A DNA stretch of 64,000 nucleotides from Streptomyces flavochromogenes (GTDB taxonomy: Bacteria; Actinomycetota; Actinomycetes; Streptomycetales; Streptomycetaceae). The translations under genes and the position numbers were made by a program. The DNA lies in the NCBI RefSeq assembly GCF_000717595.1, contig NZ_JNZO01000041.1:9479-73478 (forward strand), in the 5' to 3' direction. Positions 34,724 through 62,244 of the stretch are shown here, one piece after another (position 1 is the first letter of the stretch; each line of letters opens with the position of its first letter). The notes under the pieces were generated by a model that made no database searches, had not been told where the DNA came from, and was given only the letters and a program-made list of their open reading frames with translations.

Positions 34724-35715
34724 AACAGCCGCACGCTCCGCCACCCCTCCTCCACCGGCATCCCGCCGCACAGCGGATGCAGCACGAGGCTCTCCAGGCC
34801 GAGCGCAAGGCACTCCTCCGGAGTGAGGACCCGGTAGACCCCCTCCGCACGCAGCTCCGCCACCGTCGCCGCCGTCGACCGCACCGCCGAGCGGATGTCC
34901 TTGGACTGCCACGAGGCGTACGTCCGCGCCTCGTGCAGGAAGTGCTCCCCGTACTCCGCCCAGGTCCGGTCCGGGTCCTCCGACAGATGCAGCAGCGGCG
35001 TCACCTCGGCCGGCATCATCGTCCAGCCCTCCGTGCCGTACTCCGCGCAGCGCTCCTGGTAGTACTCCTCCAGCTCCGGCAGGTGCGCGCTCGGGAAGAA
35101 CGGAAGCCCGAGCCGGGCCGCCCGCCGCGCCGCCGCCCGCGACGACCCCCCGACCAGAAGCATCGGATGCGGCTGGGTGAAGGGCCTCGGGGTGACCCGT
35201 ACCTTACGGCCCTGATACGTGAACGGCTCCCCGGTCCAGGCCGTGAGCAGGGTCTCCAGGAGCAGGTCCTGGAGCTTGCCGCGCCGCCCCCAGTCGACCC
35301 CGCGCTCCTCGTACTCCTCCGGGCGGTAGCCGATCCCCGCCACCGTCACCAGGCGTCCCTCGCTCAGCAGGTCGAGGACGGCGATCTCCTCGGCGAGCCG
35401 CAGCGGGTCGTGCAGCGGCCCGATGATCGCGGAGACGGTGACGGCGATCCGCCCACCCGTCTCCCGGCCACCACCCCCCGGCGAGGCGCTGTGCGCCGCC
35501 CCTCCCATCGTCGCGCCGAAGACCGCCCCGGCGAAGGCGAAGGGGGACGGCAGCCAGTTGTTGTCGACCCCGTGGTGCTCCTCGGTCTGCACGGTGTCGA
35601 CCCCGTGGGCGTCGGCGTACGCGGCCATCTCGACGGCGGCCCGGTAGCGGGCGGAGAGGGATTCGGGGGTCGCGCGGGGATCGACGAGGTTGAACCGTAT
35701 GACGCTGATCGGCAT
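34690..35715 (-). CDS. LLM-class flavin-dependent monooxygenase or reductase
   Basis: 341 residues from ATG 35715, with GGAGGGGG 7 bases upstream. Bacterial luciferase-like fold: SVIRFNLVDPRATPESL, VDTVQTEEHHGVDNNWL, IAVTVSAIIGPLHDPLRLAE, LSEGRLVTVAGIGYRPEE and PHPMLLVGGSSRAAARR. Cofactor may be FMN or F420. It is followed on the minus strand by the triplicated end and preceded by an NCS1 permease 58 bases away. The pairing suggests uptake and oxidation of a nitrogen heterocycle; substrate unknown. Confidence 0.88.
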   Translation of the reverse strand: MPISVIRFNLVDPRATPESLSARYRAAVEMAAYADAHGVDTVQTEEHHGVDNNWLPSPFAFAGAVFGATMGGAAHSASPGGGGRETGGRIAVTVSAIIGPLHDPLRLAEEIAVLDLLSEGRLVTVAGIGYRPEEYEERGVDWGRRGKLQDLLLETLLTAWTGEPFTYQGRKVRVTPRPFTQPHPMLLVGGSSRAAARRAARLGLPFFPSAHLPELEEYYQERCAEYGTEGWTMMPAEVTPLLHLSEDPDRTWAEYGEHFLHEARTYASWQSKDIRSAVRSTAATVAELRAEGVYRVLTPEECLALGLESLVLHPLCGGMPVEEGWRSVRLFCDAVVPRLAA

Positions 35716-57988: not shown

Positions 57989-58572
57989 CGGACTCCACGG
58001 CACGGCAGACGCAGGGGCCCGGTGCCGAAACGCGCGGCGAGCCCGGCACCGCGCAGGGCGCCGCCCCGGCCGCCGGACCGCACGTGGAGGTCCGGCGGGT
58101 CGCGCGGGTCGTCCTGCTCGACCCCGACGACCGCATCCTCCTCATGCACGGCTACGAGCCCGACCACCCCGACCAGACCTGGTGGTTCACACCCGGCGGC
58201 GGCCTGGAGGGCGACGAGACCCGGCAGGAGGCGGCCCTCCGCGAGCTCGCCGAGGAGACCGGCATCACCGACATCGACCTCGGGCCCGTGCTCTGGACGC
58301 GGTACTGCTCGTTCCCCTTCGACGGGCGCCGCTGGGAGCAGGACGAGTGGTACTACCTCGCCCGCACCCGGAGGACCGAGGCCGCACCCCGGCCGCAGGC
58401 CCTCACCGAGCTGGAGAACCGCAGCCTCGCGGGCCTCAGATGGTGGACCTCCGCCGAACTGTCGGCGGCCCGTGAGACGGTGTACCCGACCAGACTCGCC
58501 GAGCTGCTGCGCACGCTGCTCGACGAGGGACCTCCGCGTGCACCGGTGGTTCTCGCCCCGGAAATCGTTTAG
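57985..58572 (+). CDS. Nudix hydrolase
   Basis: 195 residues, overlapping sipZ by 4 bases. The Nudix box is GGLEGDETRQEAALRELAEE followed by TGI, with catalytic glutamates intact. A disordered Ala/Gly-rich N-terminus of about 30 residues precedes it. The substrate could be an oxidised nucleotide or a nucleoside diphosphate sugar. Position after the signal peptidases is known in Streptomyces. Confidence 0.9.
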   Translation: MTDSTARQTQGPGAETRGEPGTAQGAAPAAGPHVEVRRVARVVLLDPDDRILLMHGYEPDHPDQTWWFTPGGGLEGDETRQEAALRELAEETGITDIDLGPVLWTRYCSFPFDGRRWEQDEWYYLARTRRTEAAPRPQALTELENRSLAGLRWWTSAELSAARETVYPTRLAELLRTLLDEGPPRAPVVLAPEIV

Positions 58573-58627
58573 GGGCGCGTCCGCCTGGCGCACAATAGGG
58601 GGACGCACGGCTGAAGGGGAACATGCC

Positions 58628-58936
58628 ATGAGCGCCGAGGACCTCGAGAAGTACGAGACCGAGATGGAGCTGAAGCTCTACCGGGAGTACCGCGATGTCG
58701 TCGGGCTGTTCAAATACGTGATCGAGACCGAGCGGCGCTTCTACCTCACCAACGACTACGAGATGCAGGTGCACTCGGTCCAGGGCGAGGTCTTCTTCGA
58801 GGTCAGCATGGCCGACGCCTGGGTCTGGGACATGTACAGACCGGCCAGGTTCGTCAAGCAGGTCCGTGTCCTCACCTTCAAGGACGTGAACATCGAGGAG
58901 CTCAACAAGAGCGACCTCGAACTCCCCGGCAGCTGA
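58628..58936 (+). CDS. DUF2469-family protein
   Basis: 102 residues, ATG after GAAGGGGA. Highly charged: MSAEDLEKYETEMELKLYRE, then RRFYLTNDYEMQVHSVQGEV and YRPARFVKQVRVLTFKDVNI. This actinobacterial family is near-invariant next to yraN and the comM-dprA genes but has no assigned function. Confidence 0.92.
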   Translation: MSAEDLEKYETEMELKLYREYRDVVGLFKYVIETERRFYLTNDYEMQVHSVQGEVFFEVSMADAWVWDMYRPARFVKQVRVLTFKDVNIEELNKSDLELPGS

Positions 58937-58964
58937 ACCGCCCCCGCCCGCAAGGGTGAGCCGG

Positions 58965-58991
58965 TTCTCCACAGGTCCCCCGCCGTCCACA
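58965..58991 (+). promoter_or_regulatory. Two near-consensus DnaA boxes
   Basis: TTCTCCACA (58965-58973) and CCGTCCACA (58983-58991), 18 bases apart in the same orientation, resemble the Streptomyces box TTGTCCACA. They lie between DUF2469 and the yraN hairpin. Confidence 0.35.
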
Positions 58992-59008
58992 GCGCCACAC
59001 GCGATCCC

Positions 59009-59041
59009 ACCACCTCCGTCACAGTCGGCGACGGAGGTGGT
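59009..59041 (+). promoter_or_regulatory. Hairpin burying the yraN ribosome site
   Basis: A perfect 12-bp inverted repeat: arms 59009-59020 and 59030-59041 with a 9-base loop. The right arm contains GGAGG (59033-59037), the Shine-Dalgarno sequence 9 bases before the yraN ATG at 59047. The structure would block ribosome access when folded. Confidence 0.75.
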
Positions 59042-59046
59042 ACCGC

Positions 59047-59412
59047 ATGAACAGGACCCAAGCACTCGGACGGTACGGAGAAGAGCTGGCCACCCGCCGG
59101 CTCACCGCGACCGGCATGCACATCCTCGCCCGCAACTGGCGCTGCGGCCGGACCGGCGAGATCGACATCGTCGCCCGCCACGGCGACACCCTCGTCATCT
59201 GCGAGGTCAAGACCCGGCGCGACGGCGCGTACGAACACCCCATGGCCGCCGTCACACCCCGCAAGGCGGACCGGCTCCGGCGCCTCGCCGCCTGCTGGCT
59301 CGACCGCAGCGGCACCCCCGCCCCTCCCGGCGGCGTCCGCATCGACCTCATCGGCATCGTCCTGCCCCGCCGCGGCGCCCCGCTCCTCACCCACGCCGAA
59401 GGGGTGGCCTGA
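59047..59412 (+). CDS. YraN-family (UPF0102) nuclease-like protein
   Basis: 121 residues, [20 protein letters not shown]. Endonuclease-like core: [20 protein letters not shown] has the D...E-X-K acids of the PD-(D/E)XK fold; [10 protein letters not shown] and [14 protein letters not shown] are family signatures. Function unproven, probably nucleic-acid related. It is 1 base ahead of comM. Confidence 0.92.
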
Positions 59413-59413
59413 C

Positions 59414-61036
59414 ATGGGATTCGCCCGCACCTGCTCCGTCGCCCTCGTCGGCGTCGAAGGCGTCGTCGTCGAGGTCCAGGCCGACCTCGAACCCGGCGTC
59501 GCCGCCTTCACCCTCGTCGGCCTCCCCGACAAGAGCCTCACCGAGAGCCGAGACCGGGTCCGCGCCGCCGTCGTCAACTCCGGCGCCGAATGGCCCCAGA
59601 AGAAACTCACCGTCGGGCTCAGCCCCGCATCCGTACCGAAAGGCGGATCGGGTTTCGACCTCGCCGTGGCGGCGGCGGTTCTCGGCGCCGCCGAGCGCAT
59701 CGACCCCCGTGCCATCGCCGACCTCGTCCTCATCGGCGAACTCGGCCTCGACGGACGCGTCCGGCCCGTCCGCGGCATCCTCCCCGCCGTCCTCGCCGCC
59801 GCCGACGCCGGCTACCGCCAGGTCGTCGTCCCCGAACAGACCGCCGGCGAGGCCGCCCTCGTCCCCGGGGTGTCCGTCCTCGGCGTCCGCAGCCTCCGCC
59901 AGCTCATCGCCGTCCTCACCGACGAACCCGTCCCCGAGGAGGAACCCACCGAGGCCGGCCGACCCGACGCCATGCTCGCCGGACTCCTCGTCCCCGGCGC
60001 CGGCCTCGGCACCGGACTCGCACCCGACCCCACCGACCCCTCCGAAGGCCCCGACCTCGCCGACGTCGCCGGCCAGCACCGAGCCCGCCGCGCCCTCGAA
60101 GTCGCCGCCGCGGGCAGCCACCACCTCCTGCTCTCCGGACCGCCCGGCGCAGGGAAGACCATGCTGGCCGAGCGCCTCCCCGGCATCCTCCCGCCCCTCA
60201 CCCGGCAGGAATCCCTCGAAGTCACCGCCGTCCACTCCGTCGCCGGCATCCTCCCGCCCGGCGAACCCCTCGTCCGCCGCGCCCCCTACTGCGCGCCCCA
60301 TCACTCCGCCACCATGCAGTCCCTCGTCGGCGGCGGAAACGGCCTCCCCAGGCCCGGCGCCGTCTCCCTCGCCCACCGGGGCATCCTCTTCCTCGACGAA
60401 GCCCCGGAGTTCTCCGGAAAGGCCCTCGACGCCCTCCGTCAACCCCTCGAATCCGGGCACGTCGTCATCGCCCGCGCCGCCGGAGTCGTCCGCCTCCCCG
60501 CCCGCTTCCTCCTCGCCCTCGCCGCGAACCCCTGCCCCTGCGGACGCCACACCCTGCACGGCGCCGGCTGCGAATGCCCCGCCGCACTCGTCCGCCGCTA
60601 CCAGGCGCGCCTCTCCGGACCCCTCCTCGACCGTGTCGACCTTCGTGTCGAGGCCGAACCGGTCACCCGCTCCGACCTCCTGGGCCAAGGAGGGCGCGGC
60701 GAGAGCACCGAGACCGTCGCCGAACGCGTCCGCGAAGCCCGCCACCGCGCCGCCGCACGCCTCGCCGACACCCCCTGGAACGTCAACAGCGAGATCCCCG
60801 GACACGAACTCCGCACCCGCTTCCAGGCCGCCCCCGGAGCCCTCGCCACCGCCGAACGCGACATCGAACGCGGACTGCTCACCGCCCGCGGCCTCGACCG
60901 GGTCCTCCGCGTCGCCTGGACCGTCGCCGACCTCGCCGGACACGACCGCCCCGACAGCGAGGACATCGCCCTCGCCCTCGAACTGCGCACCGGCATCGCC
61001 CGCGGCGTGCCCGTCGGAGCGGAGGGCCGGGCATGA
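59414..61036 (+). CDS. Mg-chelatase-like ATPase, ComM/YifB family
   Basis: 540 residues. N-terminal Lon-like domain (VEGVVVEVQADLEPGVAAFT, VGLPDKSLTESRDRVRAA), then the AAA+ part with Walker A LSGPPGAGKTMLAERLPG, Walker B GILFLDEAPEFSGKALDALR and a zinc-type CPCGRHTLHGAGCECP. In gamma-proteobacteria ComM is a branch-migration helicase for natural transformation. The next gene dprA overlaps by 4 bases. Confidence 0.93.
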   Translation: MGFARTCSVALVGVEGVVVEVQADLEPGVAAFTLVGLPDKSLTESRDRVRAAVVNSGAEWPQKKLTVGLSPASVPKGGSGFDLAVAAAVLGAAERIDPRAIADLVLIGELGLDGRVRPVRGILPAVLAAADAGYRQVVVPEQTAGEAALVPGVSVLGVRSLRQLIAVLTDEPVPEEEPTEAGRPDAMLAGLLVPGAGLGTGLAPDPTDPSEGPDLADVAGQHRARRALEVAAAGSHHLLLSGPPGAGKTMLAERLPGILPPLTRQESLEVTAVHSVAGILPPGEPLVRRAPYCAPHHSATMQSLVGGGNGLPRPGAVSLAHRGILFLDEAPEFSGKALDALRQPLESGHVVIARAAGVVRLPARFLLALAANPCPCGRHTLHGAGCECPAALVRRYQARLSGPLLDRVDLRVEAEPVTRSDLLGQGGRGESTETVAERVREARHRAAARLADTPWNVNSEIPGHELRTRFQAAPGALATAERDIERGLLTARGLDRVLRVAWTVADLAGHDRPDSEDIALALELRTGIARGVPVGAEGRA

Positions 61037-62244
61037 CCACTCCCGACCCCCGCCCCGGCACCCCAGGCTCCGCGCCCATGGACGAGCGACGGGCACGGGC
61101 CACGCTCAGCCGCGCCGTCGAACCAGGCGACGAACACGCCGGCCGCTGGCTCCAGCGCTACGGAGCCACCGGCTTCCTCGACCGCCTCCTCGACACCACG
61201 CCCCATCCCCGGGGAGGAACCGACGCCGACCCCTTCCCCGGCACCGGAGCGAAACGCGTCGCCTCCTGGCGGCTGCGCGCCACCGCCGCCGACCCCGCCC
61301 GCGACCTCGCCACCATCCACGACCTCGACGGACGCTTCCTCGTCCCCGGCGACACCGAATGGCCCCGACAGCTCGACGACCTCGCGGACGCCCGCCCCCT
61401 CGGCCTCTGGGTCCGGGGCCCCGCCGACCTGCGCACCTGGGCCCTCCGCTCCGTCGCCCTCGTCGGCGCCCGCGCCTGCACCCCGTACGGCGCCCACACC
61501 GCCGCAGACCTCGCCACCGACCTCGCACGCAAAGGCTGGGTCGTCGTCTCCGGAGCCGCCTACGGCATCGACGGCGCCGCCCACCGCGGCGCCCTCGCCG
61601 CGGGCGGAGCCACCGTCGCCGTCCTGGCCTGCGGCGTCGACACCCCGTACCCCCGCGGCCACGACCAACTCATTCGCCGCATCGCCGAACAAGGCCTCGT
61701 GGTAGGGGAGTTGCCGCCAGAGAGTCACCCCACCCCCAGCCGCTTCATCCTCCGCAACCGGGTCATCGCCGCCCTCACCCGAGGCACCGTCGTCATCGAG
61801 GCCCAGCACCGCAGCGGTTCGCTCGTCACCGCCCGCGCCGCAGCCCGCCTCGGCCGCCACACGATGGGCATCCCCGGCCCCGTGACCAGCGCACTCTCCG
61901 CCGGCGTCCATGAACTCCTCCGCGGCGACGCCGCCCTCGTCACCGACGCCGACGAGATCGTCGAACTCGTCGGCGACATGGGTCAGCTCGCCCCGGCGCG
62001 CCGAGGGCCCGTCCTCCCACGCGACCTCCTCGCCCCGGCCGCGGCGCACATCCTCGAAGCGATCCCCGCCCGCGGCCCCACCCCCGCCACCGTCATCGCC
62101 CGTCGCGCCGGAACCACCCCCGACGACACCCTCGCCAGGCTGTACGAACTCCACTCCCTCGGCTTCGTCGAACGACACGGAGAAGGCTGGCAGTTGACGA
62201 ACACGACAACACCCGCGTCGAACGTGCGGCGAGGCGGTACTTGA
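61033..62244 (+). CDS. dprA: DNA-processing protein DprA/Smf
   Basis: 403 residues, ATG overlapping the comM stop. Rossmann core: LVGARACTPYGAHTAADLAT, VVSGAAYGIDGAAHRGALA, LACGVDTPYPRGHDQLI, then SRFILRNRVIAALTRGTVVI and the GSLVTARAAARLGRHTMGIP signature. A winged-helix-like domain lies at the C-terminus (ARRAGTTPDDTLARLYELHS). It loads RecA on single-stranded DNA. An ATG at 61078 (MDERRARATLSRAV) is an alternative start. Confidence 0.94.
   Translation: MTTPDPRPGTPGSAPMDERRARATLSRAVEPGDEHAGRWLQRYGATGFLDRLLDTTPHPRGGTDADPFPGTGAKRVASWRLRATAADPARDLATIHDLDGRFLVPGDTEWPRQLDDLADARPLGLWVRGPADLRTWALRSVALVGARACTPYGAHTAADLATDLARKGWVVVSGAAYGIDGAAHRGALAAGGATVAVLACGVDTPYPRGHDQLIRRIAEQGLVVGELPPESHPTPSRFILRNRVIAALTRGTVVIEAQHRSGSLVTARAAARLGRHTMGIPGPVTSALSAGVHELLRGDAALVTDADEIVELVGDMGQLAPARRGPVLPRDLLAPAAAHILEAIPARGPTPATVIARRAGTTPDDTLARLYELHSLGFVERHGEGWQLTNTTTPASNVRRGGT

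Follow-up and report, generated by a model that had tools for sequence, protein, structure and literature searches.

Our analysis showed that the Shine-Dalgarno (SD) sequence of yraN lies in the 3′ arm of a perfect, GC-rich hairpin in the window, by which we mean the whole 64 kb stretch of DNA analysed. The SD-covering arm, a −10-like core in the loop and a pair of DnaA-box-like 9-mers upstream fit one arrangement, a putative promoter inside a hairpin loop. The hairpin is very probably real and under selection in the family. We give about an even chance to the view that it would act as a read-through lock, like the hairpin proposed for sigG of B. subtilis; this fits the data better than a switch acting on the operon's own mRNA and is the more likely of the two.

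The gene yraN (UPF0102; 59047..59412, plus strand) is followed on the same strand by comM, of the yifB family of Mg-chelatase-like AAA ATPases (59414..61036), and by dprA (61033..62244; TIGR00732, E = 1.9e-64; PF02481), with whiG further downstream. This agrees with the earlier note on this DNA, which had described the three genes as nearly contiguous. The same note had attached functions of DNA uptake to them, and the bacteria in question are not known to take up DNA. Of 295 genomes of the genus, 293 had YraN by our search, as did 114 of 118 genomes of the class. These counts are for YraN only; such near-universal presence fits a general role and leaves the uptake reading weak. The nearest named relative among those listed was Streptomyces aureus NRRL B-2808 (L034), with YraN at 98%. 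In some relatives (L050-L054, L079, L081 and L083-L085) the yraN reading frame is extended at its N-terminus, to varying degrees, ahead of the conserved domain. In the open-access literature, SCO5601-5604 were found only in PMC4255298, where they appear for the DUF2469 linkage.

The hairpin consists of the 5′ arm ACCACCTCCGTC (anti-SD; 59009..59020, plus strand), the loop ACAGTCGGC (59021..59029, plus strand) and the 3′ arm GACGGAGGTGGT (59030..59041, plus strand), the last including the SD GGAGG at 59033-59037. The perfect 12 bp inverted repeat, its 9-base loop and the position of the SD were all as the earlier note had reported, except that the stem ends 5 bases (59042-59046), not 6, before the yraN ATG at 59047. 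The window has 22 matches to a perfect 12 bp stem with a loop of 3–12 bases, spread over 8 separate places, while dinucleotide shuffles of the window gave a mean of 0.35 matches and a maximum of 2 in 20 shuffles. The yraN hairpin is therefore beyond chance, yet not unique in the window. The RNA of 58997-59060 folded at −27.2 kcal/mol (z −3.44; none of 200 shuffles equal), and a longer RNA, 58960-59100, had a z of −2.10 (7 of 200 shuffles equal). SD accessibility was taken as P(unpaired) in the −60..+30 RNA, with the upstream part shuffled as the control. By this measure the 14 SD genes of the window, yraN among them, stood at 0.330 versus 0.361 shuffled, and three of the 14, one of them yraN, fell below 0.05. 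At another gene start, position 35715 on the minus strand, GGAGG lies in a GC stem, with a P(unpaired) of 0.00 versus 0.29 shuffled. An Rfam search of the whole window at gathering scores returned five tRNAs only and no match to a riboswitch or thermometer family, and a terminator consensus scan of 58500-59200 was negative, with no run of T following the stem.

The comparison across relatives used two samples. From 236 family loci, L001-L003 were left out, giving 233 yraN leaders; we then dropped L127, which lies too close to the edge of its locus, and L208, whose SD is weak, and duplicate removal reduced the remaining 231 to 216 unique leaders. These fall into group A (the window's clade, 35 leaders), group B (bulk Streptomyces, 126) and group C (55). 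Group C joins 54 leaders from the family's other genera with L086, a divergent Streptomyces that was placed there by identity and counted neither in the genus permutation nor among the 54 other-genera leaders. The second sample was a class-wide draw of 83 loci. L239, from the genome that also supplied L205, and 29 loci lacking a strong SD did not enter the profile and fold counts. This kept 53 class leaders, and group D (other families of the class) consists of the 52 among them that have a strong GGAGG. Bins of YraN identity differ from these genus groups, since the set below 66% (48 leaders) holds three Streptomyces (L086, L089 and L205) and the 66–79% set (134 leaders) holds nine leaders of other genera.

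Masking of the SD was strong in the closest relatives of the window and again in distant ones. At YraN identities of 85–100%, mean P(unpaired) of the SD was 0.049 versus 0.325 shuffled and was lower in 26 of 26 leaders; at 79–85% it was 0.277 versus 0.392 (lower in 6 of 8), at 66–79% 0.643 versus 0.466 (36 of 134), and below 66% 0.073 versus 0.340 (46 of 48). Counted by group, the SD was masked (P(unpaired) <0.1) in 24 of 35 leaders of group A, and group B was mostly open, with 10 of 126 masked and a mean of 0.682 over the 126 leaders. Among the other genera, 52 of 54 leaders were below the shuffled control and 42 of 54 were masked. Masked leaders occur in 13 of the 15 genera; each of the remaining two is represented by a single leader, and one genus has 2 of 8 masked. 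Group D showed modest masking (0.304 versus 0.402 shuffled; 37 of 52 lower, 10 of 52 below 0.1). The claim that the hairpin covers the yraN SD is thus upheld, and the masking recurs beyond the window's clade, where the arms differ in sequence and still match each other.

How far the arms match was seen when 5′ arms were exchanged between leaders. In group C the cognate arms were stronger in 43 of 55 leaders (−22.2 versus −17.5), and in group D there was a slight gain (−17.7 versus −16.4; cognate stronger in 34 of 52). Group B was unchanged (−14.5 versus −14.6), with the cognate arm stronger in 51 of 126. Since the 3′ arm is almost invariant inside group A, the exchange had little effect there (−22.2 versus −21.8; cognate stronger in 18 of 35). 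When each genus was represented by a single leader (clade A and 15 genera), cognate arms gave −23.4 kcal/mol and permuted arms −19.1 kcal/mol, and none of 15,000 genus-level permutations (30 × 500) was as strong as the cognate arms; related leaders are not independent, and a genus-level test lessens the effect of kinship but does not remove it. Stems of 13 to 18 pairs with different sequences are formed on the same SD in L213, L185, L233, L223 and L217.

Cell by cell, group C leaders in the window's fixed register paired in 61.8% of cells, versus 34–42% in slid registers. Their 35 double-change cells were not in excess of the slid versions (22–35), as the stems differ in register. Group A had one double-change cell only, and its outermost pairs are rarely kept, with 8 A-T at −24/+8 and 5 A-T at −21/+5 among the 35 leaders. 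The co-variation that the earlier note had proposed to look for across Streptomyces was thus absent within the window's clade and within bulk Streptomyces and clear between genera, where none of the 15,000 permutations equalled the cognate arms and pairing is kept by selection; inside the clade there is no sign of this. Energy-based tests of this kind read alike for RNA pairing and for a DNA palindrome; that the arm sequences change between genera argues against a sequence-specific operator.

The loop of the hairpin holds the core of a −10-like hexamer, CACAGT (59020..59025, plus strand; ANNNT core at 59021-59025), whose predicted start is at about 59032-59033. The A at −12 and the T at −8 of GGAGG had frequencies of 1.00/1.00 in group A, 0.94/0.94 in B, 0.87/0.84 in C and 0.54/0.52 in D, and are among the most constant bases of leaders that are otherwise poor in A and T. 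ANNNT with its T 7–9 nt before GGAGG was present in 35/35, 121/126, 52/55 and 47/52 leaders of groups A to D, where chance would give 1.8, 13.2, 5.1 and 3.4. The hexamer is kept also in group B without the hairpin, so the hairpin does not account for its conservation. As described in the available parts of two papers, the −10 core is TANNNT in S. avermitilis, with a BTGTCV −35 element at a 12-nt spacer (PMC8780764), and ANNNT in S. griseus (PMC8914203). In the window there is no TANNNT anywhere in 58571-59050 and no second ANNNT in 58954-59050; a sigma-70 consensus scan of 58500-59200 returned no promoter, and no BTGTCV −35 was seen by eye at a 12-nt spacer upstream of the hexamer. With C, not T, at its first position and no good −35 seen, CACAGT would be a weak promoter needing help. 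Its conservation and position suggest that it is probably the promoter of the operon.

The spacing of this −10 predicts a start within about one base of GGAGG, so that the operon's own mRNA would be without the 5′ arm. In a predicted transcript from one base before GGAGG, P(unpaired) of the window's SD rises from 0.0001 to 0.43. Such a start opens the SD further in 33/35 leaders of group A, 54/55 of C and 48/52 of D, and in only 60/126 of B, where the SD is mostly open already. A second ANNNT (CAAGAT), its T 37 nt before GGAGG, occurs in 108 of 126 leaders of group B and may be another promoter of bulk Streptomyces. Part of group C has an upstream ANNNT with T at 34, 35, 37 or 38 (9–13 of 55 leaders each). 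The upstream ANNNT is all but missing from the window's clade (1/35 at offset 37, 2/35 at 38), and in group D its offset is not a common one. The only other intergenic candidate for the start of a native mRNA in the window, the upstream ANNNT in 58952-58957 (AAGGGT), was rejected, its offset being common to just 8 of the 35 clade members.

Two DnaA-box-like 9-mers, TTCTCCACA (58965..58973, plus strand) and CCGTCCACA (58983..58991, plus strand), lie upstream of the hairpin, 18 nt apart from start to start. The available parts of previous reports give TTGTCCACA for high-affinity DnaA boxes of S. coelicolor and M. tuberculosis (PMC4285127) and [TC][TC][GA]TCCAC[AC] for Streptomyces oriC boxes (PMC3583192). 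Box 2 fits the latter pattern, and box 1 has one mismatch, a C at position 3. TCCAC[AC] was found at −85 to −45 of GGAGG in 35/35, 126/126, 53/55 and 40/52 leaders of groups A to D, with chance expectations of 1.5, 2.4, 1.6 and 1.1. When class leaders of any SD strength were counted, 65 of 82 had at least one box at −110..−50 of the start, as did 18 of the 29 with a weak SD. Of the 216 family leaders, 131 keep the exact spacing of 18 nt. In Streptomyces the usual 9-mer starts are −68 and −50; other genera and families have them at about −61 and −78 to −91, which displaces them by roughly one helical turn with respect to the predicted start.

The host genome (8.9 Mb) has TTNTCCACA 82 times, versus 34 for the reversed word. 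It has TNTCCACA-N12-TCCACA twice, before yraN and at L237 (G000 C23, about 554-579), where by eye the site lies between M23-peptidase-like and RpsB-like frames. TTNTCCACA-N12-TCCAC occurred 0–9 times per genome and at least once in 53 of 55 family genomes; the reversed pattern had 5 matches in all. Six genomes gave 40 paired sites, of which 30 were examined, sites before yraN among them, and by coordinates the yraN site was among the 40 in five of the six. In other Streptomyces (L270, L273, L280, L286, L272, L277, L279 and L288), paired TTNTCCACA sites stand before various genes. An SSB paralogue is among the downstream neighbours (Pfam on 59 residues), and further neighbours, all judged by eye, were ParA-like, unknown-type and response-regulator-like frames. 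The paired TTNTCCACA sites possibly form a small DnaA regulon. Judged by motif alone, the boxes at 58965 and 58983 are fairly likely to bind DnaA, and the operon promoter may answer to it. DnaA boxes at promoters, including those of DNA repair genes in E. coli, have been reviewed (PMC8203912), and the boxes here likewise stand at a putative promoter; the term dprA is absent from the available part of that review. In the open-access literature we found no paper joining Streptomyces, DnaA box and dprA. Among the matches listed, none on Streptomyces, dprA and transformation appears to treat this operon, and we came across no account there of a two-box DnaA site before it or of the arrangement as a whole.

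The gene before yraN, encoding a DUF2469 protein (58628..58936, plus strand; PF10611, E = 1e-52), runs in the same direction, and its stop is 110 bases from the yraN ATG in the window; group medians of this distance are typically 120–160 bases. DUF2469 is co-directional upstream of yraN in 35/35 leaders of group A, 125/126 of B, 53/55 of C and 43/52 of D, and is the probable source of mRNA reading through into yraN. With this gene nearly always there, a test of whether masking depends on a co-directional gene upstream had no power. Just upstream of box 1 lies a small inverted repeat, CCCGCAAGGG (58947..58956, no strand assigned), of the form CACYC..GRGTG in relatives, which was present in 25/35, 39/119 and 10/52 of the leaders examined in groups A, B and C. 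It is weak in the window itself (fold z −0.57) and may mark where the upstream transcript ends.

As a read-through lock, the hairpin would work as follows. RNA polymerase starting from the −10 in the loop would begin at or just before GGAGG, and the operon's own mRNA, being without the 5′ arm, would have a more open SD. An mRNA coming from DUF2469 and the genes before it would carry both arms, fold and stay untranslated. The operon would then be made only when its own promoter, perhaps responsive to DnaA, fires. Counted against this lock, bulk Streptomyces keep the boxes and the hexamer and mostly not the masking (10 of 126 leaders).

Similar arrangements are known. In B. subtilis, according to the available part of PMC5942855, a large hairpin has been proposed to cover the ribosome binding site (RBS) of sigG in read-through transcripts of the upstream operon, and it cannot form in transcripts from sigG's own promoter. 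The yraN leader resembles sigG, so far as that text describes it, in that a stable hairpin takes up the SD in its 3′ arm and a co-directional gene lies upstream. It differs in phylum and gene, in arms that turn over between genera with the pairing kept, in the DnaA-box-like pair upstream, and in that the yraN start is predicted from sequence only. Long transcripts also fold over the RBS in the Tn10/IS10 transposase gene (protection from outside promoters) and in the T4 lysozyme gene e, and there the proper promoter starts inside the repeat. Unlike these genes of a mobile element and a phage, yraN belongs to a chromosomal operon of many genera. No open-access paper matching the Tn10 or T4 precedents was found.

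The earlier note had proposed a switch, in which the operon is transcribed from an upstream start, its own mRNA includes the hairpin, and a protein, a ligand or a change of temperature opens it. An SD hidden in a 5′ stem is indeed what RNA thermometers and riboswitches have; masking is strong in the window's clade and recurs in other genera, and the second upstream ANNNT of group B (108 of 126) and part of group C could start a hairpin-bearing mRNA. However, hardly any leader of the window's clade has that ANNNT, it has no common offset in other families, and where it is best kept, in bulk Streptomyces, the SD is mostly open. The sole conserved −10 candidate of the clade lies in the loop, which would probably place the 5′ arm outside the own mRNA. 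There is also no Rfam match, and a very stable, perfect, GC-rich stem, at −27.2 kcal/mol at 37 °C (58997-59060), would make a poor thermometer. The switch thus does not hold up well, and we consider it unlikely. Chance drift of the 5′ arm into complementarity with the invariant SD of the window's clade would explain why so few of the 35 leaders keep the outermost pairs (8 and 5 A-T) and why the arms do not co-vary inside the clade. It does not explain why the SD is less accessible than in shuffles in 26 of 26 close relatives, or why other genera mask the SD likewise with other arms, and it is very improbable.

Strong GC hairpins downstream of a last gene may also be terminators or attenuators, and Streptomyces terminators without a U tract exist. 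On this reading the hairpin would end DUF2469 read-through, its overlap with the SD being secondary. No T run follows the stem, and a terminator would not need to mask the SD, so the masked SD in 42 of 54 other-genera leaders argues against it; we regard it as improbable. The symmetry around the −10-like hexamer could also suit a dimeric regulator of, for example, the MtrA type, bound to the palindrome over the −10 as a DNA-level operator. The GTCACAG kept in the window's clade resembles the M. tuberculosis MtrA motif GTCACAGCG as given in the available part of PMC4285127. The arm sequences nevertheless differ between genera with the pairing kept, which makes such an operator highly improbable. 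An MtrA-type operator was rejected, as the word is not kept whole in bulk Streptomyces or elsewhere outside the clade.

Returning to the read-through lock, a wider and more tentative possibility is that the whole actinomycete class shares one ancient control module for the operon. In it, a pair of DnaA boxes would be phased to a promoter that starts at the SD, so that DNA-processing proteins would be made in step with the replication initiator, and in many lineages a rapidly evolving hairpin would enclose this promoter and keep all other transcripts of the operon from being translated. The hairpin also carries a warning for annotation: an SD hidden in a hairpin need not belong to the operon's own mRNA. 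If true, the lock would add a chromosomal case, found in many genera, of a promoter inside an RBS hairpin, where only the correctly started mRNA is translated. If true, the arrangement would also tie DprA and ComM, usually seen as DNA-uptake proteins, to the replication initiator, and would offer a testable clue to their role.
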